A program made the position numbers and the translations under genes. From Firmicutes bacterium HGW-Firmicutes-2 (GTDB lineage Bacteria > Bacillota > Clostridia > Lachnospirales > Vallitaleaceae), in contig PGZV01000001.1 in NCBI GenBank assembly GCA_002841495.1, positions 62,001 through 126,000 on the forward strand: a stretch of DNA of 64,000 bases. Reading direction: 5' to 3'. The number at the start of each line of letters is the position of its first letter. Position 1 is the first letter of the stretch. This document shows positions 10,879-53,758 of the stretch, piece after piece. A model generated the notes under the pieces. The model was not told the DNA's origin. It searched no databases and saw only the letters and a list, made by a program, of their open reading frames with translations.

Positions 10879-11144
10879 TTCCGTGCAGCTGGGGAGTTAG
10901 CGGTGCCCTGTACCTGCAATCCGCTATAGCAGGAGTGATATCAATCCGAGGGTCGAAGAATGTGGGGCCGCCCTTAAAAAGTGACGATGACGATCTGGTC
11001 TTACGCAATGAGAATCTGTGAACCGTGTCAGATCTTGACGGAAGCAGCACTAAGCAGAACATCTTGTGTGCCGTAAGGGTGCCGGATTTGAGTAAACTAG
11101 TAAGGTAACGCCTGTGTTTGAGATTCGAAGTGCGATGCACGGAA
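10879..11144 (+). ncRNA. ffs: Signal recognition particle RNA, large (Alu-containing) bacterial type
   Basis: The 5' part holds the Alu-domain signature (GGTGCCCTGTACCTGCAAT then CCGCT). The 3' part has the conserved SRP54-binding hairpin with GTCAGATCTTGACGGAAGCAG. The ends TTCCGTGCA (10879-10887) and TGCACGGAA (11136-11144) pair perfectly and define a mature RNA of about 266 nt, close to the 271-nt B. subtilis scRNA. A terminator follows. The neighbours tadA and dnaX agree with the usual locus. Confidence 0.95.
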
Positions 11145-36207: not shown

Positions 36208-36208
36208 T

Positions 36209-37969: not shown

Positions 37970-37999
37970 GCATATTTTTATATAAATCAACAAAAAAAA

Positions 38000-38008
38000 T
38001 GGTATAAT
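38000..38008 (+). promoter_or_regulatory. Extended -10 promoter of the Cache diguanylate cyclase gene
   Basis: TGG-TATAAT lies about 55 nt upstream of the cyclase start. It suggests a transcript separate from the kinase pair. Confidence 0.5.
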
Positions 38009-38063
38009 ATTAAAAACTACATCAATAAGGTACTAACATTTGACGTAAAGAGGGAGACGACTC

Positions 38064-39851
38064 ATGAAATTACCATTTTCAAATAGGAAGCAATCTATAA
38101 GAGGGGATTTACTCCGACCTTTTATAATAAGTTTTTTATGCACCATGGTCTTGATGGCGGGTATGTTGATCATACAAAGTCAAAAAATGGTGGACCAAGT
38201 TTTGAATGAACTTCAAGGTGAAATGTTGACCATGTTAGATAGAGAACTCGACACACGCTTAGGCGAAGCCATGCGGTTAAGTCGTATATCTCATGATGCT
38301 ATGAAAAACAATATACTTAATATCCAAGATCAGCAAAACAGAGAACGTTTTTTTGCCATGATGGTTCAGAATTATCCGAATGTTACAATGTCCTTTGTTG
38401 GATTGCCAAATGGTGAATTTTACGGTGCCAGACGTAATAGTGACGGTAGTATCGATATCGGTCGTAACAATGCCTCCACTTCGGGGCATTCAGAATATTA
38501 TCGTATTGATGAATATGGAAGTGCAGATAGCTTAACTCAAGTATTTGAGAATTTTGATCCTAGGATAAGACCATGGTATACAAGTGCAGAGGCTTCTGAA
38601 AGTCTGGTATTTAGCTCGATATACAGCCATTTTTTATTTAAGGAGCCGACGATTACCGCAAGTCTTTCCTATTTTGAAGCGGAAGAACTGGTGGGTGTTT
38701 TTGGTGTTGATTTATTATTAACATGGTTAGGTGAATCTCTTAGAGAGCTCCCTATTGGAAACAATGGCCTGGTTTTTATAGTTGATAAGAATGAACAACT
38801 TGTAGCAACTACAACAGAAGATGAGATCTTTAGATTAGTAGATGACAAATCAGTAAATGTATCTATTCATGATGTTGACAATTCCGTGATTAACTCGATC
38901 TTATCAGCAAATCAACCATATAATGGAGATTTAATCATTAACAACAAACCCTATATGGTAGCCAAAATGAATTATATATATGAAAACCTGGATTGGGATA
39001 TTTATATCGCACTCATGAAAGATGATTTTCTTGAAGACTTAAAAATCACATTAGCATGGACCCTTGTACTGGTAGCCTTCATTACGGCATTGTTTATAGC
39101 AGGCACAGTCGTCATCGTCAAACGTATTGTTGACCCGATTATCAAGCTTAATGATGCAACTAAAAAACTAGAGCAAGGCATTTATGTCGAATTGGATATG
39201 GATCATCATAAAAATGAGATCTATGAATTAAATAATAGCTTTAATAGTATGGGACAACAAATCATACATCATCTGGAAATCCTTGAAGAAGAAGTAGCTG
39301 CGCGTACAAAAGAACTTGAGGAGAAGAATCAAAAACTAAAGGACCTATCCTATACGGATCAACTCCTTCATATTGGTAATCGTAGGCGATTTGATGAGAG
39401 TGGCAGCTTTATGTTAGAGCTGGCCAATCGTAGTGCCTTATCATTTACCATCATGATGCTTGATATTGATGACTTTAAGGTTTTCAATGATACTTATGGA
39501 CATGTAGAAGGTGACAACTGCCTGATTACAATTGCTGCATCTATGCATGACAGTCTTAATAGAAAAACAGACCTATTGGCCCGTTATGGTGGTGAAGAGT
39601 TTGTTGTAGCAATTACACATCTGACGAAGGAACAAGCCGTAGAAAGGGCAGAGCACATAAGGAAAGCGATAGAAGACTTAAAGATAAAAAATATAAACAC
39701 CGAAACAGGGTTTATCACCGTGAGTGTTGGTATTGCCTATGTAGCAGAGCATCAGGATCTGACCCTTGAAGATCTGGTTATAGCTGCAGACCAGGCTATG
39801 TACACAGCAAAAGTAAGCGGAAAAAATAGATGTGAGATAAAGGTACTCTAG
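38064..39851 (+). CDS. Cache-HAMP diguanylate cyclase
   Basis: A 595-aa membrane enzyme predicted to make c-di-GMP from two GTP. A membrane segment at about 17-35 and another near 333-354 flank an extracellular Cache domain (NFDPRIRPWYTSA). HAMP, a short coiled coil and a GGDEF domain (about 425-595) follow. The active site is RYGGEEF. The inhibitory I-site RKTD lies exactly five residues before it, so product feedback is likely retained. No EAL domain is present. Confidence 0.92.
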   Translation: MKLPFSNRKQSIRGDLLRPFIISFLCTMVLMAGMLIIQSQKMVDQVLNELQGEMLTMLDRELDTRLGEAMRLSRISHDAMKNNILNIQDQQNRERFFAMMVQNYPNVTMSFVGLPNGEFYGARRNSDGSIDIGRNNASTSGHSEYYRIDEYGSADSLTQVFENFDPRIRPWYTSAEASESLVFSSIYSHFLFKEPTITASLSYFEAEELVGVFGVDLLLTWLGESLRELPIGNNGLVFIVDKNEQLVATTTEDEIFRLVDDKSVNVSIHDVDNSVINSILSANQPYNGDLIINNKPYMVAKMNYIYENLDWDIYIALMKDDFLEDLKITLAWTLVLVAFITALFIAGTVVIVKRIVDPIIKLNDATKKLEQGIYVELDMDHHKNEIYELNNSFNSMGQQIIHHLEILEEEVAARTKELEEKNQKLKDLSYTDQLLHIGNRRRFDESGSFMLELANRSALSFTIMMLDIDDFKVFNDTYGHVEGDNCLITIAASMHDSLNRKTDLLARYGGEEFVVAITHLTKEQAVERAEHIRKAIEDLKIKNINTETGFITVSVGIAYVAEHQDLTLEDLVIAADQAMYTAKVSGKNRCEIKVL

Positions 39852-39877
39852 ATGCTTTTAAGATTTTTAGATAGATA

Positions 39878-41116
39878 TTAGATTGTACTGAGTTTCACTT
39901 TGAAAGTTGTAGATACACCTTCTATGGAAGAAACGGAAATCTTACCATTATGTTGGTCGATGATGGACTTTGCTATTGCTAGACCAAGGCCATATCCGCC
40001 ACTGGACCTTGTCCTTGATGAATCTACACGGTAAAAACGATCGAAAATCCTATCCATATGTTCTTTGGGTATACCTTCGCCGGTATTGGTGACAGTGAAG
40101 ACAGCATGTTGATTGTGTCGTTCTAAGTTAAGCTGAATGGTGCCTTTTTCAGAAGTATATTTAATAGCATTATCCAGTAGTATCATGATGACTTGAACGA
40201 TTTGTTGGTGATTACCATAGATTTTTATAGAGGACTCAAGCTGATGTTTCAGCTTGAGTCCTTTTTCATAGAGAATGGCTTCCATAGATAAAAGTGTACT
40301 TTCAATCATTTTACTTAGGTCAAAAACGTCGAAAATCTGTTTTGGATTAGACTGGTCCATTTGAGTTAGAAACAGTAAGTCATGAATTAGAAGATCCATT
40401 CTTTGGGTCTCGGATTGTATATGTTTAAGCCATTTCATTTCATCAACTATGGTTGATGCTTGGTTGTCAATGAGTACATCAACATTTGTGTTGATAATTG
40501 CGAGTGGGGTTTTCAGTTCGTGAGACGCATCACCAACGAACTGCTTTTGTTTTTCATAGGCCTCTTTTACAGGAAGTATGGAGCGGTCCGTTAGAAAGCG
40601 ACTGATGAGGAAGATGAAAAATAGCATAATGAATGCCGCAACCAAAAAAGTGTAGATTAATCTAGTAAGTACTGCATATTGACTGGTGACATCTAAAAAA
40701 ACCAATTTGTAACCGACATTGTTGGGCATCACCAAATAAGCCCATTTACTACCATCAAATTCTATGACTTTTGAGGGATGTTCTTTTAATAACGCCTTTA
40801 TAGCTGTATCATAAAAAGTATTTTCAGCCTCAAAAAAACTGATGGTACGAAGTAATTGCCATTGATCGTTAACAAAAAGAACAAAGGACAGGGAGCGATG
40901 CTGCTCTAAGTTAGAGGGTCCGGGCCGAGTAGATTCGGAAGAAGGACGATTATTGCCAAATTCTTGAAAATCAGCAACTCGATGGAGCTCCATATCAATA
41001 CGGTTCCTAACATCATTATAAGTGAAGATGAAAATAGCAAAAAAGCCACTGACCATCAAAATGGTAATGATGAGAAGGTTCATTAAGATGAGTCTACTTC
41101 TTAGTTTTTCAAACAT
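39878..41116 (-). CDS. Sensor histidine kinase of an OmpR-type system
   Basis: A 412-aa membrane kinase with membrane segments at about 11-31 and 152-172, an extracellular region between them, HisKA at about 190-250 (VGDASHELKTPLAII) and a HATPase domain with DNAIKYT, NTGEGIP and GYGLGLAIAKS. There is no clear HAMP. It begins 1 base from the response regulator gene, its partner. Both are divergent from the polyphosphate/CotH operon. Confidence 0.9.
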   Translation of the reverse strand: MFEKLRSRLILMNLLIITILMVSGFFAIFIFTYNDVRNRIDMELHRVADFQEFGNNRPSSESTRPGPSNLEQHRSLSFVLFVNDQWQLLRTISFFEAENTFYDTAIKALLKEHPSKVIEFDGSKWAYLVMPNNVGYKLVFLDVTSQYAVLTRLIYTFLVAAFIMLFFIFLISRFLTDRSILPVKEAYEKQKQFVGDASHELKTPLAIINTNVDVLIDNQASTIVDEMKWLKHIQSETQRMDLLIHDLLFLTQMDQSNPKQIFDVFDLSKMIESTLLSMEAILYEKGLKLKHQLESSIKIYGNHQQIVQVIMILLDNAIKYTSEKGTIQLNLERHNQHAVFTVTNTGEGIPKEHMDRIFDRFYRVDSSRTRSSGGYGLGLAIAKSIIDQHNGKISVSSIEGVSTTFKVKLSTI

Positions 41117-41791
41117 TTAATGCACCTCCAAAGTATAACCGACACCCCGCAAAGTATGAATAGATACAGTTGAACCAACAAAAATCAGTTTTTTTCTTAA
41201 AAAAGAGATGTAGACCTCAACATGGTTGTGCTCAGCATCCGTATCAAACCCCCAAAGTTTTTCCAAAATGCTTTCCTTAGAAGTCACCATGCCTTTCCTA
41301 AGAATTAGGAATTCGAGAAGCTGATATTCCCTTAAGGTCATTTTGACTTCACTCTGGTCTTTGGTGAGTTTAAGGGTGTTTGGATCCAACTTGAGATCAC
41401 CATATGTCAGACCATGATCCATAGGAATCTCACCTTTTCTCCGAGATAAGACACGTATTCTGGCGAGAAGCTCTTCAGAGGCAAAAGGTTTGATAAGATA
41501 ATCATCGGCACCGCTATCGAGACCTTCAACACGCTGAGAAACCTCACCACGAGCTGTAAGAAGGAGTACAGGTGTATGCATACCTTCTTTTCTTAGATGT
41601 TTAAGAACGGTCAATCCATCCATTTTAGGCAACATGATATCCAGTAAGATGACATCGTATATTTGACTTAAACAATAGTCTAGACCGGCTTCTCCATCAT
41701 GGACCATGTCAACGGAATAATTGTTTTTCTTAAGAATATGAAGGAGTGCCTCAGCAAGAGATACTTCATCCTCAATAATCAGAATGCGCAT
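41117..41791 (-). CDS. OmpR-family response regulator
   Basis: A 224-aa regulator with receiver (IEDE, phospho-acceptor VILLDIMLPKMDG, lysine in YLIKPF) and a C-terminal winged helix (MTLREYQLLEFLI, ESILEKLWGFDTD, IHTLRGVGYTLE). It is transcribed with the kinase downstream. The divergent promoter gap holds AAGGTT direct repeats with 11-nt period on both strands, typical of sites for this protein family, so it probably controls itself and the polyphosphate/CotH genes. Confidence 0.93.
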   Translation of the reverse strand: MRILIIEDEVSLAEALLHILKKNNYSVDMVHDGEAGLDYCLSQIYDVILLDIMLPKMDGLTVLKHLRKEGMHTPVLLLTARGEVSQRVEGLDSGADDYLIKPFASEELLARIRVLSRRKGEIPMDHGLTYGDLKLDPNTLKLTKDQSEVKMTLREYQLLEFLILRKGMVTSKESILEKLWGFDTDAEHNHVEVYISFLRKKLIFVGSTVSIHTLRGVGYTLEVH

Positions 41792-41864
41792 GATGGTTTT
41801 CCTCTTCTTTCATATGAAATATAAGCGCTTAACTTTCACTTAGTATATCATATTTTAGAATACA

Positions 41865-41919
41865 AACCTTGAATCAACCTTAAAATCTATAGAAAGTAGG
41901 TTAAGGTTAGGTTAAGGTT
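41865..41919. promoter_or_regulatory. Two-armed OmpR-type operator in the divergent gap
   Basis: AACCTT occurs at 41865 and 41876 (11-nt period). TTAAGGT occurs at 41901 and 41912 (11-nt period). The two 19-nt arms, 41865-41883 and 41901-41919, are inverted copies differing only in the central 5 bases, with 17 nt between them. Head-to-tail repeats with 11-nt spacing are the usual target of OmpR-family dimers. Confidence 0.72.
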
Positions 41920-41960
41920 TTTGTTTTAGAATGGGTTCATAACATGAAAGGAGAGATGAA

Positions 41961-42650
41961 ATGCATAATCGAAAATACCGTCATGAGTTAAAACATCCTA
42001 TTAATGAATTTGATGTCATAGGGTTGATAACAAGACTAAGCCATGTAGCAAAGCCGGATAGTCATGGCGACTCAGAAGGCACCTACCAAGTCAGGACCCT
42101 TTACTTTGATAATCTCTATGATAAGGCTTTGATGGAAAAGGTCAATGGCGTCCCTTCAAGGGAAAAATTCAGAATAAGATACTATGGTGAGGATTTGTCC
42201 CTCATAAAACTAGAAAAAAAGAGTAAGTATAGGGGTCTTTGTCACAAAACATCAGCACCCTTAACCCAGGATCAGTGTCAGAACCTACTTAAAGGGAACC
42301 TGGATTTTTTAATGGAAAGTTCTATGGATTTACATAGAGAGCTATATGCAAAGATGCGTAGTCAGCAACTAACCCCTAAAAGCATTGTGGATTACACCAG
42401 AAGGGCTTTCACATATTCGGCAGGGAATGTTCGTATTACCATAGACCGTAATATTAGAGGCAGCGATCAGGTACAGAAATTTTTAGATCCGACGTTTAAC
42501 GGAAAAGCCATCATTCATGACATCATTCTAGAGGTCAAGTATGATCATTTTTTACCACATATTATGGCATCAGCAACACAGATGCCCAACAGACAAGCAG
42601 TGGCTTTTTCAAAATACGCCACGTGCAGAACTAAAGGAGAATATATATGA
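41961..42650 (+). CDS. VTC-domain polyphosphate polymerase
   Basis: A 229-aa cytoplasmic protein of the VTC/CYTH tunnel type that in eukaryotes makes polyphosphate from ATP. The basic residues of the active tunnel are seen in YRHELKHPI, VRTLYFDN, KFRIRYYG, IKLEKKSKYRG and VRITIDRNI. It overlaps the DUF4956 gene by 4 bases. In bacteria this gene commonly lies with DUF4956 and CotH genes, as here. Whether it makes polyphosphate or another phosphopolymer is untested. Confidence 0.87.
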   Translation: MHNRKYRHELKHPINEFDVIGLITRLSHVAKPDSHGDSEGTYQVRTLYFDNLYDKALMEKVNGVPSREKFRIRYYGEDLSLIKLEKKSKYRGLCHKTSAPLTQDQCQNLLKGNLDFLMESSMDLHRELYAKMRSQQLTPKSIVDYTRRAFTYSAGNVRITIDRNIRGSDQVQKFLDPTFNGKAIIHDIILEVKYDHFLPHIMASATQMPNRQAVAFSKYATCRTKGEYI

Positions 42651-43315
42651 CATTTCAAGATGTTTTTAAAAGTAGTTTTTTAGAAAAGGCAGCAACGTTT
42701 TCACTTATGGATGTAGCGCTTGCTATGGTGGTATCTCTATGCTTAGGCCTCATTATTTTTTATGTGTATAAGATGACGTTTACAGGTGTTATGTACTCAG
42801 CCTCTTTTGGGGTATCCCTTATAGCCATGACCTTAATTACTACTCTTATCATTCTAGCTGTTACATCAAATATTATTTTATCCCTTGGTATGGTAGGCGC
42901 CTTATCTATTGTACGATTCAGAACGGCCGTCAAGGAATCACTGGATATTGCTTTTTTATTCTGGTCTATTTCAGTTGGTATTGTTACAGGTGCCGGTCTT
43001 ATTCCACTTGGCATCATTGGTTCCATATTCATCGGTATTGTACTGTTGATCTTTGTAAATCGGAAAGGCGCGGACGCACCTTATTTAATCGTTGTCAATT
43101 GTTTGGAAGACATGGCAGAAACAGAAGTCTTATCTCTTATTAAATCTAAAACTAAGAAGCATTTGATGAAAGCAAAAACGGTATCCAGAAATGGTATTGA
43201 GTTAACTGTAGAAGTACGGTTACTAGATATGAACGCCAGTCTGGTCAATGAACTGTTGTTAATTAACAACGTAGAAAACGCTATATTGGTGAGTTACAAC
43301 GGTGAATATTTATAG
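42647..43315 (+). CDS. DUF4956 membrane protein
   Basis: A 222-aa membrane protein with about four membrane segments in its N-terminal two thirds and the conserved LGMVGALSIVRFRTAVKES at about 85-103. The C-terminal roughly 75 residues are a soluble alpha/beta domain. The function is unknown, but it regularly occurs between VTC-type polymerase and CotH genes and may act as a membrane partner or exporter for their product. It overlaps the polymerase gene by 4 bases and lies 15 bases before the CotH gene. Confidence 0.86.
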   Translation: MTFQDVFKSSFLEKAATFSLMDVALAMVVSLCLGLIIFYVYKMTFTGVMYSASFGVSLIAMTLITTLIILAVTSNIILSLGMVGALSIVRFRTAVKESLDIAFLFWSISVGIVTGAGLIPLGIIGSIFIGIVLLIFVNRKGADAPYLIVVNCLEDMAETEVLSLIKSKTKKHLMKAKTVSRNGIELTVEVRLLDMNASLVNELLLINNVENAILVSYNGEYL

Positions 43316-43330
43316 AAGGGAGGCAATTTT

Positions 43331-44956
43331 GTGATCAAAAGTAAATACATACACTGGGTTGTCATGATGGCCACTGTAGTGGTCCTTGGCATAAGTACAT
43401 TATTGATCGGTTATGCTTCTGATACTACAGTTACCGAAGGTATGACCATGGGTTATTCCAATTTTATTTTTAACGGTGACGTCATTAGTCTAAATATCAT
43501 TGCCGACCCAATAGCATGGTCAACAATGCTTGAAAATGCGACGGCAGAAACTTATATCATGGTCGATGTGGTGATTAACGGAAAAGAAATAAAAAATGTA
43601 GGGATACGCCCAAAAGGCAATTCAAGTCTATCACAAGTGGCTAGGGATGATACCACAGATAGATTTAGTTTTAGGATAAAGTTTGATCAGTATATTAAAG
43701 GTCAAACGTTTATGGGCCTAGATGCTATGGTCATCAATAACATGATTGGTGATAACAGCTATATGAAAGAATACTTGTCTTATGACATCATGGCGTATAT
43801 GGAAGTGGAGACGCCTTTGTACGGCTTCACAGATGTTTTTGTCAATGGTGAGGCATGGGGTTTTTACCTGGCAATAGAATTATACGATGATAGCTATCAA
43901 AGCCGAGTATATGGAAATACAAGTGGCAATCTATATAATGTTAAATCCATGGACATAGGTGGTAATCAGATGGATGCCAATCAAGCCCAAAGGCCTCAAG
44001 GTGATGTATTTTCGAGTGATCCTGCTGCCTTTATGAATCCGGATATGCTGAATGCACGAACTAGAGAGGGGGTAGCTTTAGATGGCTTTAAACCGGAAAG
44101 AGGTGAAGCAGTTGAAGGAAGAGAAGGCATAGTAGGAAGAGGAGGCATGGGTATGGGTAATCGGGGGAACACCGGTGGTGATCTTCAATATTCAGATGAT
44201 TTGATTACCAGCTATGCTGCAATATTTGAAAATGGTGTTGGAAAAATTGGAGAAAGCGATCAGAAAAAGGTCATAGAAGCATTGAAGCATCTGAATGAAG
44301 GCGAGGTACTAGAAGCATATTGGGACGTAGATGCCATCTTAAGATATATGGCTGCTCATACAGTGGTGGTGAATCTGGATAGTTATAGTTCTAATATGGC
44401 ACAAAACTTCTATCTATACGAAAAAGACGGGGTGCTAACTATTTTACCTTGGGACTATAATTTAGCTTTTGGCGGGTTTTCATCCAACAGTATGACAGAG
44501 GTTGTTAATTTCCCAATAGACACACCGGTTAGTGGCGTAACCATGGAAGAACGTCCTCTCTTTAATATCTTATTAAGCCAAGAAGCTTATAAAGCAACCT
44601 ATCATGAATACTTAAATGCGATTGTTTCAGATTACTTTCAAGAAGATCAATGGGCAAAGAAGATTGAAACACTTGATCAGCTAATTGGCGCTTATGTAGA
44701 AAAGGACCCGACTGCTTTTTGTACCTATGAGGCATATAAAAAGGCAATAGATACACTAACGACTCTAGGGACGCTTCGAAGTGAAAGTATCCTTGGACAG
44801 CTTGAAGGCACGATTCCATCAACCAATGAAACTCAGGAAACTGCAAAAGAGAAATTGATACAGGCAGATACTTTATCTTTGGAAGATCTAGGAAGTATGG
44901 GTGGTGGTAGAAATTCAGGTAAAATGGCAATATTTGACCAAGTGGAAATGGATTGA
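43331..44956 (+). CDS. CotH-family secreted protein kinase-like protein
   Basis: A 541-aa exported protein with an N-terminal signal or anchor (about 6-28) and CotH motifs: VGIRPKGNSSL, a short segment DNSYMKEYLSYDIM, VFVNGEAWGFYLAIE and the metal-binding ILPWDYNLAFGG. A Gly/Arg/Met-rich insert lies at about 255-285. CotH proteins are atypical kinases that phosphorylate spore-coat or surface proteins. The gene uses a GTG start with GGGAGG about 7 nt upstream. Substrate unknown; the secreted proteins encoded nearby are candidates (inference). Confidence 0.87.
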   Translation: MIKSKYIHWVVMMATVVVLGISTLLIGYASDTTVTEGMTMGYSNFIFNGDVISLNIIADPIAWSTMLENATAETYIMVDVVINGKEIKNVGIRPKGNSSLSQVARDDTTDRFSFRIKFDQYIKGQTFMGLDAMVINNMIGDNSYMKEYLSYDIMAYMEVETPLYGFTDVFVNGEAWGFYLAIELYDDSYQSRVYGNTSGNLYNVKSMDIGGNQMDANQAQRPQGDVFSSDPAAFMNPDMLNARTREGVALDGFKPERGEAVEGREGIVGRGGMGMGNRGNTGGDLQYSDDLITSYAAIFENGVGKIGESDQKKVIEALKHLNEGEVLEAYWDVDAILRYMAAHTVVVNLDSYSSNMAQNFYLYEKDGVLTILPWDYNLAFGGFSSNSMTEVVNFPIDTPVSGVTMEERPLFNILLSQEAYKATYHEYLNAIVSDYFQEDQWAKKIETLDQLIGAYVEKDPTAFCTYEAYKKAIDTLTTLGTLRSESILGQLEGTIPSTNETQETAKEKLIQADTLSLEDLGSMGGGRNSGKMAIFDQVEMD

Positions 44957-44961
44957 CGTAA

Positions 44962-45645
44962 TTACTCTATTTTATAACCATAGCCCCATACCGTAATAAT
45001 ATCCATTTCACTGGAAGCTGCAGCCAGTTTTTTTCGTAAACGCTTGATGACATCATCCACTAAACGACCCTCACCATCATATTCATATCCCCAGACTTTT
45101 TCCAGAATGTGATTTCGGCTAAAAGCCATAAGCGGGTTTTCCATGAAGAGACACAGGATATCAAACTCTTTAACGGTTAAGTTAAGATCTGTATCATTGA
45201 CTTTGACATAACGGTTAAGTACAGATAAGGTGATGTTTTTTATGACCATAAGCTCTCTACTGTGATGCCCATTAGTAGGATTATTATCCAGCCTTCTGAA
45301 AATATTTTTGATTCTGGCTAATAATTCTCTTGGGCTAAAGGGCTTAGGTAAATAATCATCAGCGCCAACCTCGAGTCCGATGATGCGATCCATTTCTTCA
45401 CCTCTTGCCGATATGAAGATAATCGGAATATCATAGGACTTACGGATTTTTTTACACAGTTCGATACCATCAATGCCGGGCATCATAATATCTAAGATAA
45501 TTAAGTCAGGAGACAGTCGGTTTATTTCTGATAGAACATGAGTAGGATCAGAAAAATCCGTCACCTTATAGTCCTCTTTTTCAAGATATTTTTTTATGAG
45601 AAGACGAATTTCTTTGTCGTCATCAACGGTAAATATATGTTTCAT
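44962..45645 (-). CDS. OmpR-family response regulator
   Basis: A 227-aa regulator with receiver (VDDDKEI, phospho-acceptor LIILDIMMPGIDG, lysine in YLPKPF) and a winged-helix domain (LNLTVKEFDILCLFM, ITVWGYGYKIE). It ends 5 bases from the convergent CotH gene. Its probable partner kinase is at 46708 on the other strand, with a secreted protein gene between, an unusual split arrangement. Confidence 0.92.
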   Translation of the reverse strand: MKHIFTVDDDKEIRLLIKKYLEKEDYKVTDFSDPTHVLSEINRLSPDLIILDIMMPGIDGIELCKKIRKSYDIPIIFISARGEEMDRIIGLEVGADDYLPKPFSPRELLARIKNIFRRLDNNPTNGHHSRELMVIKNITLSVLNRYVKVNDTDLNLTVKEFDILCLFMENPLMAFSRNHILEKVWGYEYDGEGRLVDDVIKRLRKKLAAASSEMDIITVWGYGYKIE

Positions 45646-45759
45646 AATCGAACCTCCCTGTAGCGTATATTATATCAGAATACTCATTAGCACCGTGTAT
45701 TATTGGTAATGTTTCACTACTAACTATAATAACCCTTTTTACATTCAGTCACAACAAAT

Positions 45760-45776
45760 CATACACATTTCATACA
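45760..45776. promoter_or_regulatory. Candidate OmpR-type binding repeats upstream of the secreted protein
   Basis: CATACA at 45760 and 45771 are direct repeats with 11-nt period, and a third weaker TACATC follows. They lie in the divergent gap between the response regulator gene (44962-45645) and the secreted protein gene. This spacing fits binding by that regulator. Confidence 0.5.
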
Positions 45777-45845
45777 TTTATACATCTGTTTTACCTACTT
45801 ATAAGTGTAAACTGAATACATCAATAAAGACAAGGAGTGATACAA

Positions 45846-46601
45846 ATGAAAAAATTAGTGGTACTATTAACCATCTTACTCATGGTAAATTCAAGCCTCG
45901 TGGTCAATGCAAGTGGTCAAAGAGGTGGTAATCCAAACATGAACCAGGGTCAAAACAGAAGTACGAATGCTTTCATGGGAGAAACCGTAAAAAGCAAAGA
46001 AAATGCCACCGCTCGGCACGACAATTTCTTTGAGAAACGCGAAGAAAATCAAGTCAGAAGATTAGATCAAGCGGCAACCAGATGGGAAGCTCGTTTGGAA
46101 AAGCGTGAAGCTGTCATCACCAAACATCTTGAAGTCATACAGTTATATGCACCTGAGTTACTGGCAGATTATGAAGTAGCTTTCGAAGAGCATGAAGGTG
46201 TTCATACCGAATTGATGGAGGCTAGAACCGCTATTGCAAAAGACTATATGGATGAAACTAACGCAGGTCTTGAAGCACTTAAGGCTGAGATTGAAGAAAA
46301 GCTAGAAGCGGAAGAAATCACCATCAAAGAAGCCAGAGAAATGATTAGAACCTATATGCTTGAAAGAAAAGAAGGATTTAAAGCTTTATTTGATCAATTC
46401 CAAGAAGCCATAGCCGATGAAAAAGCAGCTTACGAAATATTAAAAGCTGAAGCGGATGTTCTTAAAACTGAGCTTAGAGCTGCTATAGAAGCAGAAGATG
46501 CCGACCTATGTAACACTTTGCTTACACAACTCTATGATTATTTATTGGCACACATTGAATTTGATCAATTCAAACTAGACACCTTAAACGATATATTCTA
46601 A
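45846..46601 (+). CDS. Secreted helical (coiled-coil) protein
   Basis: A 251-aa exported protein with signal peptide at about 1-23 (cut near VNA-S), a Gly/Asn/Gln-rich stretch (GQRGGNPNMNQGQNRS), then long charged helices from about residue 50 to the end. I do not recognise the family. The arrangement next to a kinase and response regulator recalls extracytoplasmic helical modulators such as Spy or CpxP, without clear homology. The start ATG 45846 has AAGGAG 8 nt upstream; GTG 45837 is less likely. Confidence 0.62.
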   Translation: MKKLVVLLTILLMVNSSLVVNASGQRGGNPNMNQGQNRSTNAFMGETVKSKENATARHDNFFEKREENQVRRLDQAATRWEARLEKREAVITKHLEVIQLYAPELLADYEVAFEEHEGVHTELMEARTAIAKDYMDETNAGLEALKAEIEEKLEAEEITIKEAREMIRTYMLERKEGFKALFDQFQEAIADEKAAYEILKAEADVLKTELRAAIEAEDADLCNTLLTQLYDYLLAHIEFDQFKLDTLNDIF

Positions 46602-46609
46602 AAATAATT

Positions 46610-46643
46610 AGCATCTGTGAAGCAAAAACTGTTCACAGATGCT
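46610..46643 (+). other. Intercistronic hairpin between the secreted protein and kinase genes
   Basis: A perfect 12-bp stem AGCATCTGTGAA/TTCACAGATGCT with a 10-nt loop. It has no T run, so it may reduce rather than end transcription, or stabilise the upstream message. Confidence 0.6.
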
Positions 46644-46707
46644 ATAATAAATTCAATGATAAGAATAGCAGACCTTAAACATATATAACCCTACTAGGAG
46701 GCTAACG

Positions 46708-48129
46708 TTGAATAAGAGTATTTTTTCCAGACTTCTGACTACGAATTTGATCATATTCATTGGCCTGATTCTCATTTTGACCGGCACCCTTACTCTGTTG
46801 TATTCAAACCAAGTCTATCAACAGGAAGAGCAACGTCTTAGGGAAATTACTCAAAAAACGGAAAGCCTTTATTTAGATAGCACAAAAGGTAAAATTGAAG
46901 CATTGAAGCTTCAAGACTATATGGATGCCATGGCTTATGTGTCCAAATCAAAGCTTTATATTCTAAACATAAACGAAAATAATATACAAGACCTTAGAGA
47001 TTTGGATTTTGCCAACAGTGATCTGGACAACTATCTATATGAAGATCTAAACATTATTCTAGAAGGCAATGAGGTTTTTAGAAAAAGTACCTATACGGCG
47101 ACTTTTGATACCCAGATGATCTTCTATGGACGTCCGATTCATAAAGATGGTCATATTGAAGGTGTGATTGTTATATTCACACCCATCAGCACTGTTGTGA
47201 AAAATATCCGAGTCATGCTCTTAGTCATTGGCTCAGTATCCGTATTCTTCATAGCTATAGTTAGTGGGGTATTGTATATCAGTGCAAAAAAAATGACGAA
47301 GCCTATCGAAGATATCAGTAACAGTGCACTGGCGATTGCCAATGGAGATATTCTTGAAGATCTAAATAAAACGGATTATCAAGAGCTGAATGCATTAATT
47401 GATTCTTTTAATTATATGAAATCAGAACTTAATCGGATAGATGAGGATAAAAAAACATTTATAGGTACCATATCTCATGAAATAAAAACGCCGTTAACCG
47501 TCATCACAGGTTATCTAGAAGCCATTCATGACGGATTGTTGGATAAGGATGAGCTGAATGAATCTTTAGAAATTATTTATAAAGAATCCAAACGCCTTAC
47601 GGTTCTAACCAAAGATATTGTGACCAAAACCAAAAATAAGGATATGGAGTTTTATTTGAACCCTTCATTTTTTAAGCTTAAACCAATATTGGAAGAAATC
47701 ATTCAACTTGCAAAAGTGAACACTAAAAAGAACATACAGTTTATATTGAGTTGTGAGGATCATATAACCCTCTATGCAGATCAAGAAAAGGTACAACAAA
47801 TACTCTCCAACTTAATTAGTAATGCCATTAAATACTCAAACGACTTGGTGCATATCAATATAAGGGGCTATGTAGAAAATGAACAACTTTGCATATGTGT
47901 TGAGGACGATGGTTTAGGTATCAAAAAAGATGAATTGGACAAAGTTTTTCAAAAATATTATAGAATAAAAAATACCGCTACTAGGCAAGAAGGTAGTGGT
48001 CTAGGTCTTAGTATTGTCAAGAAACTCGTTGCGTTACATCATGGCACCATTGATATTACAAGTACCTATAAAAAAGGCACAACAGTAACTGTGAAGTTGC
48101 CACCCTTAAGGCAGGAGGTCAAAGGATGA
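46708..48129 (+). CDS. HAMP-domain sensor histidine kinase
   Basis: A 473-aa membrane kinase. Membrane segments at about 10-31 and 170-192 enclose an extracellular sensor of about 140 residues, followed by HAMP, HisKA (TISHEIKTPLTVITGYLEAI) and HATPase motifs (SNAIKYS, DDGLGI, GSGLGLSIVKKL). It starts with TTG after AGGAGG. It overlaps the following lipoprotein gene by 4 bases. The probable partner is the regulator at 44962. Confidence 0.88.
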   Translation: MNKSIFSRLLTTNLIIFIGLILILTGTLTLLYSNQVYQQEEQRLREITQKTESLYLDSTKGKIEALKLQDYMDAMAYVSKSKLYILNINENNIQDLRDLDFANSDLDNYLYEDLNIILEGNEVFRKSTYTATFDTQMIFYGRPIHKDGHIEGVIVIFTPISTVVKNIRVMLLVIGSVSVFFIAIVSGVLYISAKKMTKPIEDISNSALAIANGDILEDLNKTDYQELNALIDSFNYMKSELNRIDEDKKTFIGTISHEIKTPLTVITGYLEAIHDGLLDKDELNESLEIIYKESKRLTVLTKDIVTKTKNKDMEFYLNPSFFKLKPILEEIIQLAKVNTKKNIQFILSCEDHITLYADQEKVQQILSNLISNAIKYSNDLVHINIRGYVENEQLCICVEDDGLGIKKDELDKVFQKYYRIKNTATRQEGSGLGLSIVKKLVALHHGTIDITSTYKKGTTVTVKLPPLRQEVKG

Positions 48130-48596
48130 AAAAAAGCATAGTATGTCTGTTGGTGGGACTTGTGATCACCATGCTTCTTGTGGTTGGATGCAGGGAACGA
48201 CAAGTTACAAAAGTCATAGATGTAACAACAAATGGTTTGACTGGTGAAGAGGTCACAGGAAAAGACCAGAAGGAATCAGAAACAATAGAGCCGAAAGAAG
48301 TAACGTCAACATCAGAAGTTGAAGCAATCACACAATATGAATCAGTAGATAATAGTAAAGAGCCAGAAACACCGTCAGAAAAGGTATTGGAGGTAGAGGA
48401 GTCTATTGAAGAAGTGATAGATGAAAAAATAGAAACTGTTATTGTAGCTAAGTCCGAAAATCTGGAAGATATTGATGAACGGGCATTAATGCTGAAAGAG
48501 CTAGATGAATTGCTAGAGGATGTTCTAACAACACTGGATGCAGTAGAAGATGATGATATATCCAATGACAATATGTTTGATGAAGGAGGCGATTGA
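48126..48596 (+). CDS. Acidic lipoprotein, hypothetical
   Basis: A 156-aa protein with a lipoprotein signal (LLVVGC, Cys22) followed by a Glu/Thr/Ser-rich, low-complexity acidic region to the end. No domain is recognised. It is translationally coupled to the kinase gene, so it may be a surface accessory of that sensor. The Ser/Thr-rich tail could be a CotH kinase substrate, an untested guess. Confidence 0.62.
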   Translation: MKKSIVCLLVGLVITMLLVVGCRERQVTKVIDVTTNGLTGEEVTGKDQKESETIEPKEVTSTSEVEAITQYESVDNSKEPETPSEKVLEVEESIEEVIDEKIETVIVAKSENLEDIDERALMLKELDELLEDVLTTLDAVEDDDISNDNMFDEGGD

Positions 48597-48597
48597 T

Positions 48598-49110
48598 ATG
48601 AGAAAAATGATGATGATGATGATCATGGTTATGTTAATCTCAAGCACGACAATCGTTGCACAAAATCAACTAAGACCAAGAGAAAACCGAATTCGATCAG
48701 CGGTTGTCATGACCTCAAGAGATGTAGGCCGAAGTCGTATTATGGTCAGGGATGGTATTAAAGTTTCTAGGGAGAAGACATTCGTTGTGCAGCAACAGCT
48801 TAAACGCCTTCAATCTAATCTAGATGACTTAACACCTGAACAGTTGATGCTTATCAAAAAATCCATTGAAGAAATCAGAACTTATCAACAGGGTTCAGAT
48901 GCTTATCTAGGTAGAATTGTCGCTTATGACAACAGGATTAGAAAAGCCAGGGAAGATAAGGATTATGAGACTTTGATTCAAGTATATAATGAGATTTTGG
49001 TTTTGCAAAAACATAGAATTGAAAGACTAGATCATTATAATAATTTAATGGATCGTTTGATAAAAAGTTTATCGAATATAGGAGGGTCAGATGGCGATAT
49101 TACTTCGTAA
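48598..49110 (+). CDS. Secreted small helical protein
   Basis: A 170-aa protein with a Met-rich signal peptide (RKMMMMMIMVMLISSTTIVA) and a mature helical, basic part (QQLKRLQSNLDDLTPEQLML; RIERLDHYNNLMDRLIKSL). I do not recognise a family. The start ATG 48598 has AGGAGG 8 nt upstream; earlier codons overlap the previous gene. It overlaps the epimerase gene by 20 bases. It is the second secreted helical protein of the cluster. Confidence 0.6.
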   Translation: MRKMMMMMIMVMLISSTTIVAQNQLRPRENRIRSAVVMTSRDVGRSRIMVRDGIKVSREKTFVVQQQLKRLQSNLDDLTPEQLMLIKKSIEEIRTYQQGSDAYLGRIVAYDNRIRKAREDKDYETLIQVYNEILVLQKHRIERLDHYNNLMDRLIKSLSNIGGSDGDITS

Positions 49111-50255: not shown

Positions 50256-50528
50256 ATGATTGAAAAAAGATTTATATTAGAAGCAGAAGAAGGTTTACAT
50301 GCAAGACCGGCAAGTATGTTGGCAAAAGCTACAATGAAATACAAATGCGACATTAAGCTCTATAAAGGGAGCGATAAAACCAACGTCTTTCAACCTAAAA
50401 GTATTCTTTCTTTGATGAGTGTGGGTGCCGGAAAAGGCGAACATCTGACTTTTGTTGCAGATGGTGAAGACGAAGGGGAAGCAATGGCTAGCATTACGGG
50501 ATTATTTGCTTCTAACTTCAAAGGATAG
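50256..50528 (+). CDS. ptsH: Phosphocarrier protein HPr
   Basis: A 90-aa PTS phosphocarrier that moves phosphate from enzyme I to EIIA. The active histidine is in EGLHARPAS (position 16 here), and the regulatory serine is in PKSILSLMS (about 48). Enzyme I is not encoded in the window. HPr normally lies with ptsI; here it stands alone behind two RAT switches next to the N-acetylglucosamine PTS, so it may be a dedicated or substrate-induced HPr. An AAGGAG site precedes the ATG. Confidence 0.93.
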   Translation: MIEKRFILEAEEGLHARPASMLAKATMKYKCDIKLYKGSDKTNVFQPKSILSLMSVGAGKGEHLTFVADGEDEGEAMASITGLFASNFKG

Positions 50529-50591
50529 TATAAACCTTCGTTATGTTGCACAAGTAAATATACCGTTAGAAGCTTTTTTTGGTAAAAACTA

Positions 50592-50621
50592 TTGACAGAT
50601 ATTATAATACCGTGATAGGAT
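50592..50621 (+). promoter_or_regulatory. Sigma-A promoter of the antiterminator gene
   Basis: TTGACA, 18 bp, TAGGAT, followed by GATAAAT-like bases as in the HPr promoter. It begins the transcript that enters RAT switch 3. Confidence 0.55.
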
Positions 50622-50641
50622 AAATGCATACAAAGCAATAA

Positions 50642-50700
50642 GGTGTGTTACTGTTTGATCAGGCATAAACCAAAAGTAGTAATTTTGGCTTATGCCTTTT
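50642..50700 (+). promoter_or_regulatory. RAT antiterminator/terminator switch 3, upstream of the antiterminator gene
   Basis: RAT GGTGTGTTACTG...AGGCATAAACC (50642-50671) overlaps the terminator stem AGGCATAAACCAAAA/TTTTGGCTTATGCCT followed by TTTT. This lets the antiterminator control its own gene. Confidence 0.85.
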
Positions 50701-50713
50701 AAGTTGGTGAACT

Positions 50714-51556
50714 ATGAAATGTGAAATACTAAAAATTATGAATAACAATGTCATATGGGTTCTGGATGCCAAAAACAAGGCTGAAACCGTACTAATCGGC
50801 AAAGGTATTGGTTTTGGTGTTAAGCCGGGGCAGCAAGTTGAGATACCTCAGGATGCCATTGATAAGGTCTTTATTACCTACGATCAGAAGACAATGAAGG
50901 ATTATATTGCCTTAGCTGAAAGCATTGATTCTAATATTATGGAAGTCTGTACGGAGATTATTATTTATGCAGAAGAGAAGTTGGGTAAATTAAGCCACCG
51001 TGTTTATCCGGTACTGACAGACCACATCGCCTTCGCAATTGAGCGGTTAAAAAGTCAGATGGTGATACAGAATCCATTTTTAATGGAAATTAAAGGCATT
51101 TATCAAGATGAGTTTGAGATTGGACTCAGGGCACAAAGTATGATTCTTAAAAAAATTGGCATTGATATTACAGAAGATGAAGTCGGTTTCATAGCCCTCC
51201 ATCTTAATGCTGCAAGGGAGAACAAAGAAGTCAAAGAAATCATGAAAAACACAAGGCTGATTAAGACCGTTATTGACAATATTGAAGCGGCTCTAGATTA
51301 CAAAGTGGACATGGATTCTTTTACGTATCAACGACTGGTGAGTCATATCAAAGGCAGCATTGAACGGGCTAGACTAGGACAAACGATTAAGAACCCTTTA
51401 CTGGAAAGCATTAAGGTTGAATTTGCTAACTCTTACGGGATAGCAGCAAAGATTAGAACAACCGTTGAAAGGGAGCTATCGATTAAGATATCCGATGATG
51501 AAGTCGGATACATGGCCATACATATTGCAAGAATAAGTAATAAAGCAGAGTTGTAA
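50714..51556 (+). CDS. BglG/GlcT-type transcriptional antiterminator
   Basis: A 280-aa RNA-binding regulator. Residues 1-57 are the co-antiterminator RNA-binding domain (MKCEILKIMNNNVIWVLD, LIGKGIGFGVKPGQ). Two PRD domains follow with histidine-containing segments LSHRVYPVLTDHIAFAI, GFIALHLNAA, YQRLVSHIKG and GYMAIHIAR, which HPr and EII phosphorylate to switch the protein off or on. Four RAT sites around it (50009, 50109, 50642, 51576) are its likely targets. Its substrate signal is probably N-acetylglucosamine via the downstream EII. Confidence 0.92.
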   Translation: MKCEILKIMNNNVIWVLDAKNKAETVLIGKGIGFGVKPGQQVEIPQDAIDKVFITYDQKTMKDYIALAESIDSNIMEVCTEIIIYAEEKLGKLSHRVYPVLTDHIAFAIERLKSQMVIQNPFLMEIKGIYQDEFEIGLRAQSMILKKIGIDITEDEVGFIALHLNAARENKEVKEIMKNTRLIKTVIDNIEAALDYKVDMDSFTYQRLVSHIKGSIERARLGQTIKNPLLESIKVEFANSYGIAAKIRTTVERELSIKISDDEVGYMAIHIARISNKAEL

Positions 51557-51575
51557 CCATATAAAATATATAATA

Positions 51576-51646
51576 GCGTGTTACTGAGAAAATCAGGCAT
51601 AAGCTAATTCAATCATTATGATTGGTTAGTTTATGCTTTTTTTTAT
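51576..51646 (+). promoter_or_regulatory. RAT antiterminator/terminator switch 4, upstream of the GlcNAc PTS
   Basis: RAT GCGTGTTACTG...AGGCATAAGC (51576-51604) overlaps terminator stem GCATAAGCTAA/TTAGTTTATGC with inner CAATC/GATTG, followed by eight T. No separate -35/-10 pair is evident, so the switch probably acts on read-through from the antiterminator gene. Confidence 0.85.
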
Positions 51647-51718
51647 AAACAGGTTAAAGCCCAGCAATTATTTAAGCTTTAACCAAGACATATTTCAAAT
51701 TATGAAGGAGGAAGATTT

Positions 51719-53119
51719 ATGTTTACAAATGTTTTCGGAAAGTTCCAAAAGTTAGGGAAGGCGCTAATGACACCAATTGCAGTTCTACCGATTGCAGCCA
51801 TATCGCTTAGACTTGGTGCGGGGGTCCCAGGTATTGAGGGTATGTTTGCAGATGTTATTCTAAAAGCAGGTGCCGGTGTATTTGATAACTTGGCAATCTT
51901 GTTTGCCATTGGTATCGCATTTGGTTTAGCAAAAGGTAATCATGGTGCAGCTGCACTTGCAGGTGCTGTCGGTTACTATGTTACAACGAATGTTTATACC
52001 GTCATTAATCCGGATGTTAATGCCGGCGTATTTGTAGGTATTGTGGTAGGTATTATGGCAGGGATGTTGTATAATAAGTTTCATGACATTCAATTGCCTG
52101 AATTTCTAGGATTTTTTGGAGGCAAACGTTTTGTCCCTATTATCACGTCTGTTGCATCCATCTTTTTAGGTTTGGTGTTTGGTTATGTATGGCCGTTTAT
52201 ACAAAACGGTTTAGATACTTTCGGTAACTTAATTGTTACTTCCGGTGCTATAGGACAATTTTTATATGGTTTCCTAAATAGACTATTGATTCCTACTGGT
52301 TTGCACCATGTTTTAAATACAATTTTCTGGTTCACACATGGCGAGTTTACCAATGCAGCAGGGGAAGTCATTCGAGGCGACTTGTTCCGTTTCTTAGCAG
52401 GAGACTCAACAGCGGGTGTATTTATGACAGGTTTCTTCCCAGTTATGATGTTTGGTTTACCTGCAGCAGCTCTGGCTATGTACACAACAGCTAAAAAAGA
52501 GTACAAAACATCTGTTGGTGGCGCACTTTTTAGTGTGGCTTTAACAGCTTTTCTAACAGGGATTACAGAACCGATAGAATTTATGTTTCTATTTTTGGCA
52601 CCTGGTTTGTATTTTATTCATGCTGTGCTCACAGGTGTTGCGTTGGTTATTACCAACATGTTGGGTATTTTACACGGATTCGGATTCTCAGCAGGCCTTT
52701 TTGACTATGTCATTAACTTCAACTTAGCCACTAAGCCGGTATTGTTAATCTTTGTAGGGTTAGGCTTTGGCGTGGTCTACTATCTGATCTTTGTTTTTGC
52801 TATTAAAAAGTTCGATCTATCAACACCGGGCCGTGTAGATGAATCCGGTGAAGGTGTTGCTGAACTCATTGAGGAAAAAGGATTGTCCGGATTAGCAGCT
52901 GAATATCTTAATGCCATTGGTGGTAAAGGCAATGTGGTAGAAGTAGATGCTTGTATTACCAGACTAAGACTAACACTGAAAGACAGTAGCATTGTATCTG
53001 AAGATATGGTTAAAACACTTGGTGCATCCGGAGTTATTCGACCTAACAATAAGAACGTACAAATTGTCGTAGGAACCAAAGCAGAAATTATAGCAGACGA
53101 AATGAAAAGACTGTTATAA
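51719..53119 (+). CDS. nagE: PTS N-acetylglucosamine-type EIICB component
   Basis: A 466-aa membrane permease of the glucose/N-acetylglucosamine PTS. The EIIC domain spans about 1-375, with multiple membrane segments and the conserved MTPIAVLPIAAISLRLG, GLHHVLNTIFWF and TGITEPIEF. The EIIB domain is at about 390-466 with the phospho-cysteine in VDACITRLR. EIIA is a separate gene 72 bases downstream. N-acetylglucosamine is the likely sugar because nagA and nagB follow. RAT switch 4 controls it. Confidence 0.9.
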   Translation: MFTNVFGKFQKLGKALMTPIAVLPIAAISLRLGAGVPGIEGMFADVILKAGAGVFDNLAILFAIGIAFGLAKGNHGAAALAGAVGYYVTTNVYTVINPDVNAGVFVGIVVGIMAGMLYNKFHDIQLPEFLGFFGGKRFVPIITSVASIFLGLVFGYVWPFIQNGLDTFGNLIVTSGAIGQFLYGFLNRLLIPTGLHHVLNTIFWFTHGEFTNAAGEVIRGDLFRFLAGDSTAGVFMTGFFPVMMFGLPAAALAMYTTAKKEYKTSVGGALFSVALTAFLTGITEPIEFMFLFLAPGLYFIHAVLTGVALVITNMLGILHGFGFSAGLFDYVINFNLATKPVLLIFVGLGFGVVYYLIFVFAIKKFDLSTPGRVDESGEGVAELIEEKGLSGLAAEYLNAIGGKGNVVEVDACITRLRLTLKDSSIVSEDMVKTLGASGVIRPNNKNVQIVVGTKAEIIADEMKRLL

Positions 53120-53138
53120 TAAAAGAACAATAATAATG

Positions 53139-53168
53139 GGCTTGAAGTAGGATAGCCTACTTCAAGCC
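53139..53168 (+). other. Intercistronic hairpin between nagE and the EIIA gene
   Basis: A perfect 13-bp stem GGCTTGAAGTAGG/CCTACTTCAAGCC with an ATAG loop and no T run. It may tune message stability or stoichiometry within the operon. Confidence 0.65.
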
Positions 53169-53191
53169 ATATTAATAAAAGGAGAACGAGC

Positions 53192-53662
53192 ATGTTTCAA
53201 TTTATGAAGAAGAAAATAGAACTATTTGCACCGGCAAAATGTCAAGTTATACCGATCCATGAAGTGGAGGATGCGGTTTTTTCTCAAAAAGTGGTAGGTG
53301 ACGGATGTGCCATCCTTCCTTATGAGGACATGATTTGTTCGCCTGTTAATGGAGAAGTAACCCTTGTTTTTAGAACCAATCATGCCATAGGCATCAAAAG
53401 CGAGGAAGGTATTGAGTTGCTGATTCACATTGGTATCGACACTGTTGAACTTAAGGGTGAAGGCTTTGAAAACCAGGTGAAATTAGGCGATCAAGTCAAA
53501 ATCGGAACACCTCTTAGTAAGATCAATAGAGCTTTTATCAAAGACCAAGGGAAAAGTCTACAGACCCCAATAGTGATTACCAACGATTATCATGTTGTAC
53601 AGGTCGAAAAAGGTGAAAAAAATGTAGGTGCACTTATGATGAAGGTTGTTAAAAACAATTAA
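53192..53662 (+). CDS. PTS glucose-family EIIA component
   Basis: A 156-aa cytoplasmic EIIA(Glc)-type domain passing phosphate from HPr to the EIIB of the neighbouring permease. The active histidine is in LLIHIGIDTVEL; the conserved KVVGDGCAILP and ICSPVNGEV segments are present. Length matches free-standing EIIA(Glc). A GGAG site precedes the ATG. Confidence 0.92.
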   Translation: MFQFMKKKIELFAPAKCQVIPIHEVEDAVFSQKVVGDGCAILPYEDMICSPVNGEVTLVFRTNHAIGIKSEEGIELLIHIGIDTVELKGEGFENQVKLGDQVKIGTPLSKINRAFIKDQGKSLQTPIVITNDYHVVQVEKGEKNVGALMMKVVKNN

Positions 53663-53758
53663 GTAGCAATTTGTGAAAATTCGGCCATATAGGTCTTATG
53701 AAAGATTCTATAGTACATACAGAGGATTAAGATTTGGAACATAGAAAGAAGGTATAAC

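Follow-up and report, generated by a model that had tools for sequence, protein, structure and literature searches.

The genome of Firmicutes bacterium HGW-Firmicutes-2 carries, within a 64,000-nucleotide stretch of contig PGZV01000001.1 (hereafter the window; positions are counted from its first letter), a gene for a CotH kinase-like protein that follows the genes for a VTC-domain protein, a candidate polyphosphate polymerase, and for a DUF4956 membrane protein. These three genes lie among two OmpR-type two-component systems, two putatively secreted helical proteins and a lipoprotein, and the locus raises the question of whether all of them serve a single function. The original prediction was that they do, with DUF4956 and CotH using or exporting the polymer or phosphate to modify the secreted proteins encoded alongside. 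Our analysis indicates instead, with near certainty, that the ten genes between 39878 and 49110 form two separate, abutting modules: module A (39878-44956), with histidine kinase HK1, response regulator RR1 and the VTC, DUF4956 and CotH genes, and module B (44962-49110), with RR2, helical protein A, HK2, the lipoprotein and helical protein B:

39878-41116, minus strand: HK1, sensor histidine kinase (Pfam HisKA and HATPase_c), module A
41117-41791, minus strand: RR1, OmpR-type response regulator (Pfam Response_reg and Trans_reg_C), divergent from the operon, module A
41898-41919, plus strand: perfect 11-bp tandem in the sequence, two copies of AGGTTAAGGTT, about 42 bp upstream of the VTC start, candidate RR1 operator
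41961-42650, plus strand: VTC-domain protein (Pfam PF09359, E 1.7e-38), candidate polyphosphate polymerase, module A
42647-43315, plus strand: DUF4956 (Pfam PF16316, E 6.3e-9), MgtC-like membrane protein with a C-terminal ACT-like domain, module A
43331-44956, plus strand: CotH (Pfam PF08757, E 2e-62), N-terminally anchored kinase-like arm, module A
44962-45645, minus strand: RR2, OmpR-type regulator (Pfam), outside the CotH system, module B
45837-46601, plus strand: helical protein A, signal-like N-terminus, long predicted helices, all-helical model, module B
46708-48129, plus strand: HK2, sensor histidine kinase (Pfam), module B
48126-48596, plus strand: acidic lipoprotein, lipobox-like LVVGC by eye, no Pfam match, module B
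48598-49110, plus strand: helical protein B, signal-like N-terminus, long predicted helices, start moved from 48550, module B

Some elements of the original prediction have to be redrawn already at this level. Both two-component pairs were found, but the first (39878-41791, minus strand) lies outside the interval assigned to the system and is divergent from the operon. The operon had been described as tight and overlapping; the VTC and DUF4956 genes do overlap, by 4 bp, but CotH starts 15 bp after the DUF4956 stop. Both helical proteins have the signal-like N-termini and long predicted helices expected of them, but helical protein B more likely starts at 48598 than at 48550, as an internal Met precedes its signal-like stretch. 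The lipoprotein is, as described, rich in Thr, Ser and acidic residues.

The split is seen in G001, a genome of the same genus in which neither VTC nor DUF4956 has a match. In the alignment, the left flank reaches window position 39853 and the right flank resumes at 44961, the missing block being HK1-RR1-VTC-DUF4956-CotH (5.1 kb), and the GGDEF gene, which lies ahead of HK1 in the window, here directly adjoins the RR2 orthologue. G001 carries the module B genes, with RR2 and helical protein A on different contigs and their adjacency thus out of view. At the corresponding empty site of G002, contig ends lie on either side and the RR2 tail aligns about ten bases into the block of the window. The difference in module A may stem from an insertion into G000/G003 or from loss elsewhere. 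VTC and DUF4956 are likewise missing from two further relatives that have module B (no search for CotH itself was made in G001, G008 and G013). RR2, helical protein A, HK2, the lipoprotein and helical protein B are collinear in G013 as in the window; G008 has the set together with a second copy of helical protein A, and this copy adjoins RR2. The two copies in G008 (L152:8745-14684), one beside RR2 and one ahead of HK2, have three genes between them. In G002 the module B genes and a VTC operon, a different one, lie on separate contigs. In all four genomes (G001, G002, G008 and G013) HK2 orthologues lie between helical protein A and the lipoprotein, of which relatives are present in each module B locus; weaker relatives of helical protein A, in G006 and G007, stand outside any module B-type set.

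The distribution over a survey of 22 related genomes of the family points the same way. VTC and DUF4956 were both present in the same 11 genomes and both absent from the same other 11, G007 having one extra marginal DUF4956 match. Helical protein B was found in six genomes, all of which have helical protein A and three of which lack VTC. For a wider view, 101 VTC loci were compared (20 stretches from relatives, 80 loci from named genomes, which are the best 80 of at least 578 VTC-profile-confirmed stretches, and the window), a set chosen by VTC and biased toward close VTCs; only two of these, the window and the same-genus G003, had relatives of helical proteins A and B and of the lipoprotein near the core genes. 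The helical proteins and the lipoprotein are thus very probably not parts of the CotH system, because module A is missing as a block, with its own regulator pair, from G001 while the module B genes are present there, and because module B occurs in relatives without VTC and DUF4956; the same holds for RR2 and HK2, which had also been counted as members.

That all the local genes nevertheless form a single surface-phosphorylation system, in which CotH modifies the adjoining helical proteins and lipoprotein, is in our view highly improbable. The genes are adjacent in the window and in G003, the substrates of B. subtilis CotH, CotB and CotG, are encoded near cotH (PMC7821199), and the lipoprotein has the Thr, Ser and acidic residue content noted above. 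Against this stand, besides the independent occurrence of module B, the presence of VTC in four of the eight family genomes with helical protein A and in seven of the 14 without it, the low Ser content of helical protein A (2.0%), and the absence of the candidate RR1 tandem from the RR2-helical A intergenic stretch. Adjacency alone gives no ground to read the neighboring helical proteins as CotH substrates.

What, then, does module A consist of? The three-gene core is a real and widespread unit, and VTC, DUF4956 and a third gene occur together far more often than chance would allow. A DUF4956 gene starts within 2.5 kb of VTC at 99 of the 101 loci, the exceptions being L058, where none was found, and L120, where it lies beyond 2.5 kb in the order DUF4956, Cthe_2159, VTC; it is also beside VTC at 29 of 30 short loci, a set that includes the window and partly overlaps the 101. 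Where a third gene of the types described below is present, which is the case at 95 loci, the order VTC-DUF4956-third gene on one strand holds in 88, with median gaps of 23 and 13 bp, and no open reading frame (ORF) in the 101 loci matched two core profiles. The neighborhood association that had been predicted for the whole set thus holds for this core, and for a regulator pair (see below), but not for the rest. Among the 10 of 19 neighbor clusters that were typed, no recurrent secreted substrate beside CotH was identified, save a small Pro/Gln-rich membrane protein at three loci. This protein is encoded between or beside DUF4956 and CotH (L066:9298-9834, L054 and L056).

The third gene is not constant. 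With domain-limited profiles it was typed as CotH at 65 loci, as Cthe_2159 at 30 and as neither at six; among the latter, L090 and L102 run into contig ends, and a YetF/DUF421 gene is found at L047. As L038 has two CotH genes, the arms, as we call these third-gene products, number 96 (66 CotH and 30 Cthe_2159), and a Pfam check of 40 of them, 20 per type, agreed with the typing throughout. No operon contains both types; at L127, where the operon arm is Cthe_2159, a CotH gene and a further Cthe_2159 gene, both on the other strand, lie nearby and were left out of the arm count. On a FastTree tree of VTC and DUF4956, arm type requires six parsimony changes over 94 typed loci, against a mean of 25 and a minimum of 19 in 500 label shuffles; therefore, the arms follow descent yet have been exchanged several times. 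Since Cthe_2159 replaces CotH at 30 of the 101 loci, protein phosphorylation is no constant role of VTC-DUF4956; it is a use to which the machine is put rather than its central function.

The two arm types have a common N-terminal anchor, because of which a first CotH profile was contaminated; its count (89/101) was discarded in favor of the domain-limited profiles. Many arms of both types start with an MSTHKxIDxIC-like sequence, followed by a membrane helix and then by LFMNGExLGI. When an anchor profile built from Cthe_2159 arms only was run against 4728 ORF N-termini of the loci, it matched, at E 1e-3, only 25 of the 30 Cthe_2159 arms, 35 of the 66 CotH arms and one contig-cut arm (L102); the converse profile, built from CotH arms, matched 24/30 and 55/66, respectively. 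A hydrophobic N-terminus is present in all 66 CotH and all 30 Cthe_2159 arms, as compared to 211 of 596 other genes, 1 of 100 VTC and 0 of 52 response regulator genes. As the window CotH shares this feature, it is likely to be located extracytoplasmically.

The association of VTC, DUF4956 and CotH was, as the original prediction noted, known and lacking an established role. Genes for cotH, poly-phosphate polymerase, DUF4956 and DUF4832 have been described beside pel operons, with a suggested regulation by phosphorylation and no demonstrated function; the exchange with Cthe_2159, the shared anchor, a two-component partner and the tandem are absent from the passages of that paper available to us (PMC7112168). 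A literature search, with most subscription papers and preprints outside its reach, likewise returned no report of the exchange or of the shared anchor. VTC-type and CotH genes are also listed in a Clostridium perfringens locus, in the accessible parts of two reports (PMC2879425; PMC11677781). The 226- and 222-residue "tubulin/FtsZ GTPase" proteins that follow the VTC genes in a table of the first of these are, by position and size, probably DUF4956. The passages available from three other papers (PMC6848847; PMC10434189; PMC10657179) add no information on function here.

The Pel loci suggest an explanation that dispenses with polyphosphate export: VTC, DUF4956 and the arm would regulate or decorate an exopolysaccharide such as Pel, the arm binding the matrix or the machinery that makes it, or phosphorylating either. 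In streptococci, clostridia and bifidobacteria, cotH, poly-phosphate polymerase and DUF4956 genes are found beside pelDEADAFG, with the suggested phosphorylation-based regulation (PMC7112168, as far as seen), and the window has the same three families in one contiguous cluster. Moreover, Cthe_2159 is by its Pfam name a carbohydrate-binding family, and SigI- and RsgI-like genes precede VTC at five of the 101 loci, all on one branch of the VTC-DUF4956 tree. However, no Pel gene or DUF4832 was identified by Pfam around the window operon: the genes at 35443-55646 are not pel genes, and no polysaccharide synthase appears elsewhere in the window among the 25 of 47 outer families listed, or among the 10 of 19 recurrent neighbor clusters identified by Pfam. 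This explanation also leaves the near-invariance of the polymerase domain unexplained, and we consider it unlikely.

VTC is also conserved at the level of single residues. The charged columns E9, K11, R71, R73, E85, K87, K96, R147, R158, E191 and K193, which by our assignment of the Vtc4 residues presumably line the tunnel, are identical in 99/99 VTC ORFs (215-320 residues), and the VTC profile matches yeast Vtc4 structures (2.6e-15). The window protein has 229 residues, most relatives having 221-260, and VTC is its sole Pfam match. From its conserved residues, VTC probably has polyphosphate polymerase activity. It would not be the only polyphosphate enzyme: PPK1 is present in all 22 family genomes, and for this reason VTC is not needed for bulk polyphosphate storage.

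In DUF4956, R90, F91 and R92 are invariant in 96/96 sequences. Its structural model has five long helices followed by a ferredoxin/ACT-like C-terminal domain, which would lie in the cytosol by analogy with MgtC. The top Foldseek match is the C-terminal domain of MgtC (2lqj, E 3.3e-3; VIA Z 10.1, tied with many ferredoxin-like folds), and the NCBIfam MgtC/SapB model PRK09977 gives E 6e-6 (26 bits, far under the cut-off of 214). In CotH, D350 is kept in 60 and D375 in 61 of 61 aligned arms, and the window protein aligns with the solved CotH structure 5jd9 (9.3e-8) with both aspartates in register. D350 is the inferred equivalent of D228 in B. subtilis CotH, where the D228Q substitution inactivates the protein (PMC7821199). 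Whether the window CotH acts as a kinase outside the cell we regard as an even chance.

These data bear on another explanation, in which DUF4956 is an MgtC-like regulator of phosphate or ion homeostasis at the membrane, polyphosphate bound or made by VTC serves as a signal locally and is not exported, and the arms function as adhesins. It would account for the resemblance of DUF4956 to MgtC, in both the NCBIfam match and the C-terminal domain, and Cthe_2159-like folds and fungal CotH have been placed among adhesins, judging by paper names only. However, the retention of the catalytic aspartates in the CotH arms is unexpected for a mere adhesin, and the MgtC-like C-terminal fold is a common one, on which many unrelated proteins score equally. 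We rate this explanation, too, as unlikely.

How is the operon controlled? OmpR-type regulators repeatedly adjoin the core. A regulator and a kinase lie within 2.6 kb upstream of VTC at 17 of 63 loci, as compared to five of 63 for an equally wide stretch farther upstream, and among these five are the window and G003, where a second system occupies that stretch; with either side counted, the pair is present at 25 of 67 loci with enough flank, the distal downstream control (2.1 kb) giving 3/71. RR1 falls in a 16-row clade (support 97/94) that comprises 12 CotH loci, three Cthe_2159 loci (L050, L104 and L112) and the armless L047; the rows of this tree all come from VTC loci by design, and it does not bear on whether the clade is exclusive to such loci. 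Other core-adjacent regulators fall in separate clades, e.g., L036/L040/L043/L044 and L033/L052/L053/L113/L131. The N-terminal half of HK1 (first 180 residues) matches kinases at eight other VTC loci, all of the RR1 clade, and in G003 (E <= 0.003).

Upstream of VTC, the pattern TTAAG-N6-TTAAG or its complement was found at seven of the 16 RR1-clade loci (0.02 expected from letter shuffles) and at six of the 85 others, the window and L034, as well as L105 and L109, being close pairs within these counts. Over the 64 kb of the window there is a single copy of the exact 19-mer of the tandem (0.04 expected), and there are two of the loose TTAAG-type pattern (0.37 expected), one at the operon site and one elsewhere. 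OmpR-type sites are usually spaced 11 bp apart. RR1 thus probably controls the operon through the tandem, its predicted operator. A promoter and terminator scan gave results near chance.

The reading of these data that we prefer, tentatively and at somewhat short of an even chance, is that module A, abutting the separate module B, is a regulated machine in which VTC makes polyphosphate, DUF4956 holds, passes or exports the polymer, and an exchangeable arm acts outside. HK1 would sense an outside signal and RR1 would switch on VTC-DUF4956-CotH via the 11-bp tandem. VTC, a soluble triphosphate-tunnel domain, would make polyphosphate from ATP in the cytosol; DUF4956 would hold or pass the polymer at the membrane, taking, as a separate protein, the place of the membrane portion of the eukaryotic VTC complex; and the third gene would supply a membrane anchor bearing either a CotH kinase domain or a Cthe_2159 binding domain. 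The CotH of the window would work on the cell surface, where it would probably phosphorylate components of the envelope or matrix. Module B is a two-component module apart from it, and the putatively secreted helical proteins and the lipoprotein belong there. Of this, the gene content, the module split, the near-invariant pair, the arm exchange, the shared anchor and the conserved catalytic residues are read from sequence; export of polyphosphate through DUF4956 is a doubtful step, and CotH may, we infer, use polyphosphate.

Several observations weigh against this reading. The anchor of the window CotH is diverged, giving no match to the Cthe_2159 profile and a modest one to the CotH profile (E 8.7e-4 with the window and G003 excluded from it; the next non-arm ORF has E 0.19). 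Some branches of the tree used for arm exchange are weak (support 0.2-0.6). No regulator pair lies in the counted stretches at 42 of the 67 loci with enough flank, and the tandem is missing upstream of VTC at nine of the 16 RR1-clade loci. VTC ORFs of 221-387 residues carry no SPX or eukaryotic VTC membrane part (by Pfam on the window protein and by length elsewhere). The DUF4956 model is weak at residues 71-100 (predicted local distance difference test about 69), and its membrane part has no fold match, the C-terminal domain alone having filled the match list; because of this, the case for export rests on architecture and linkage. Lastly, an exported CotH would sit where ATP is scarce. Where CotH obtains its ATP is described as an unanswered question for the spore coat as well (PMC7821199).

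A bolder version of the preferred reading would address this last point. VTC-DUF4956 would synthesize and export polyphosphate, and the chain, as it grows, would be offered to a plug-in arm that its conserved anchor keeps in the same membrane complex; Cthe_2159 arms would tether or organize surface polyphosphate, and CotH arms would use the polymer as phosphoryl donor for surface targets. We consider it improbable, but if true, polyphosphate as CotH donor would explain extracellular kinase work without ATP. VTC proteins of bacteria, DUF4956 and exported CotH proteins occur widely, and no common role has been assigned to them. The combination of a near-invariant pair with an exchangeable, anchored arm sets the constant part, the making and membrane handling of the polymer, apart from the variable one, the activity outside. 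The system offers a direct test of whether there is a dedicated machine for surface polyphosphate and of whether an exported kinase can use polyphosphate.

Known systems resemble module A in part. The eukaryotic VTC complex (Vtc1/3/4) likewise joins a triphosphate-tunnel polymerase domain to a membrane partner, but the bacterial polymerase lacks the SPX and VTC membrane domains, its constant partner is a separate MgtC-like protein, and an outside arm is added. The Bacillus CotH spore-coat kinase shares the fold and both aspartates, whereas the window CotH has an N-terminal membrane anchor, belongs to a VTC-DUF4956 operon and is not beside spore-coat genes. Bacillus CotH is not known to have a signal peptide. 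Members of the MgtC/SapB family have membrane helices followed by an ACT-like domain, a layout that is also predicted for DUF4956; however, the sequence match of DUF4956 to them is weak, and DUF4956 is linked to VTC at nearly all the loci studied, which were chosen by VTC. The genome of the window contains one CotH gene.

For helical protein A of module B, a confident all-helical model was obtained from about residue 65 on, with no structural match at E 0.001. Its N-terminal Gly/Asn/Arg-rich stretch resembles, by eye, an insert in CotH. As in CpxRA with CpxP, a secreted helical protein would be encoded divergently from an OmpR-type regulator, but here the helical gene stands between regulator and kinase. 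A CpxP/Spy origin of helical protein A was considered and found unsupported: the LTXXQ score lies under the cut-off (E 0.077, 14.2 bits, cut-off 24.3), no solved structure matches, and a PDB profile search gave neither protein.

Upstream of HK1, at 35443-39851, the window encodes an AraC-type response regulator, a Cache histidine kinase and the GGDEF protein. Downstream of module B, 50256-55646 is by Pfam an ordinary amino-sugar uptake set, with HPr, a PRD/CAT antiterminator, phosphotransferase system EIICB and EIIA, a NagA-like amidohydrolase and glucosamine-6-phosphate isomerase. Three RNA/tRNA scans found no tRNA in the window and a single RNA, a large bacterial signal recognition particle RNA at 10881-11142 (170.8 bits). 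Outside 35443-55646, two of the 32 proteins scanned have an RsgI-like anti-sigma domain, and the genes there also encode flagellin, FliS and chemotaxis proteins.

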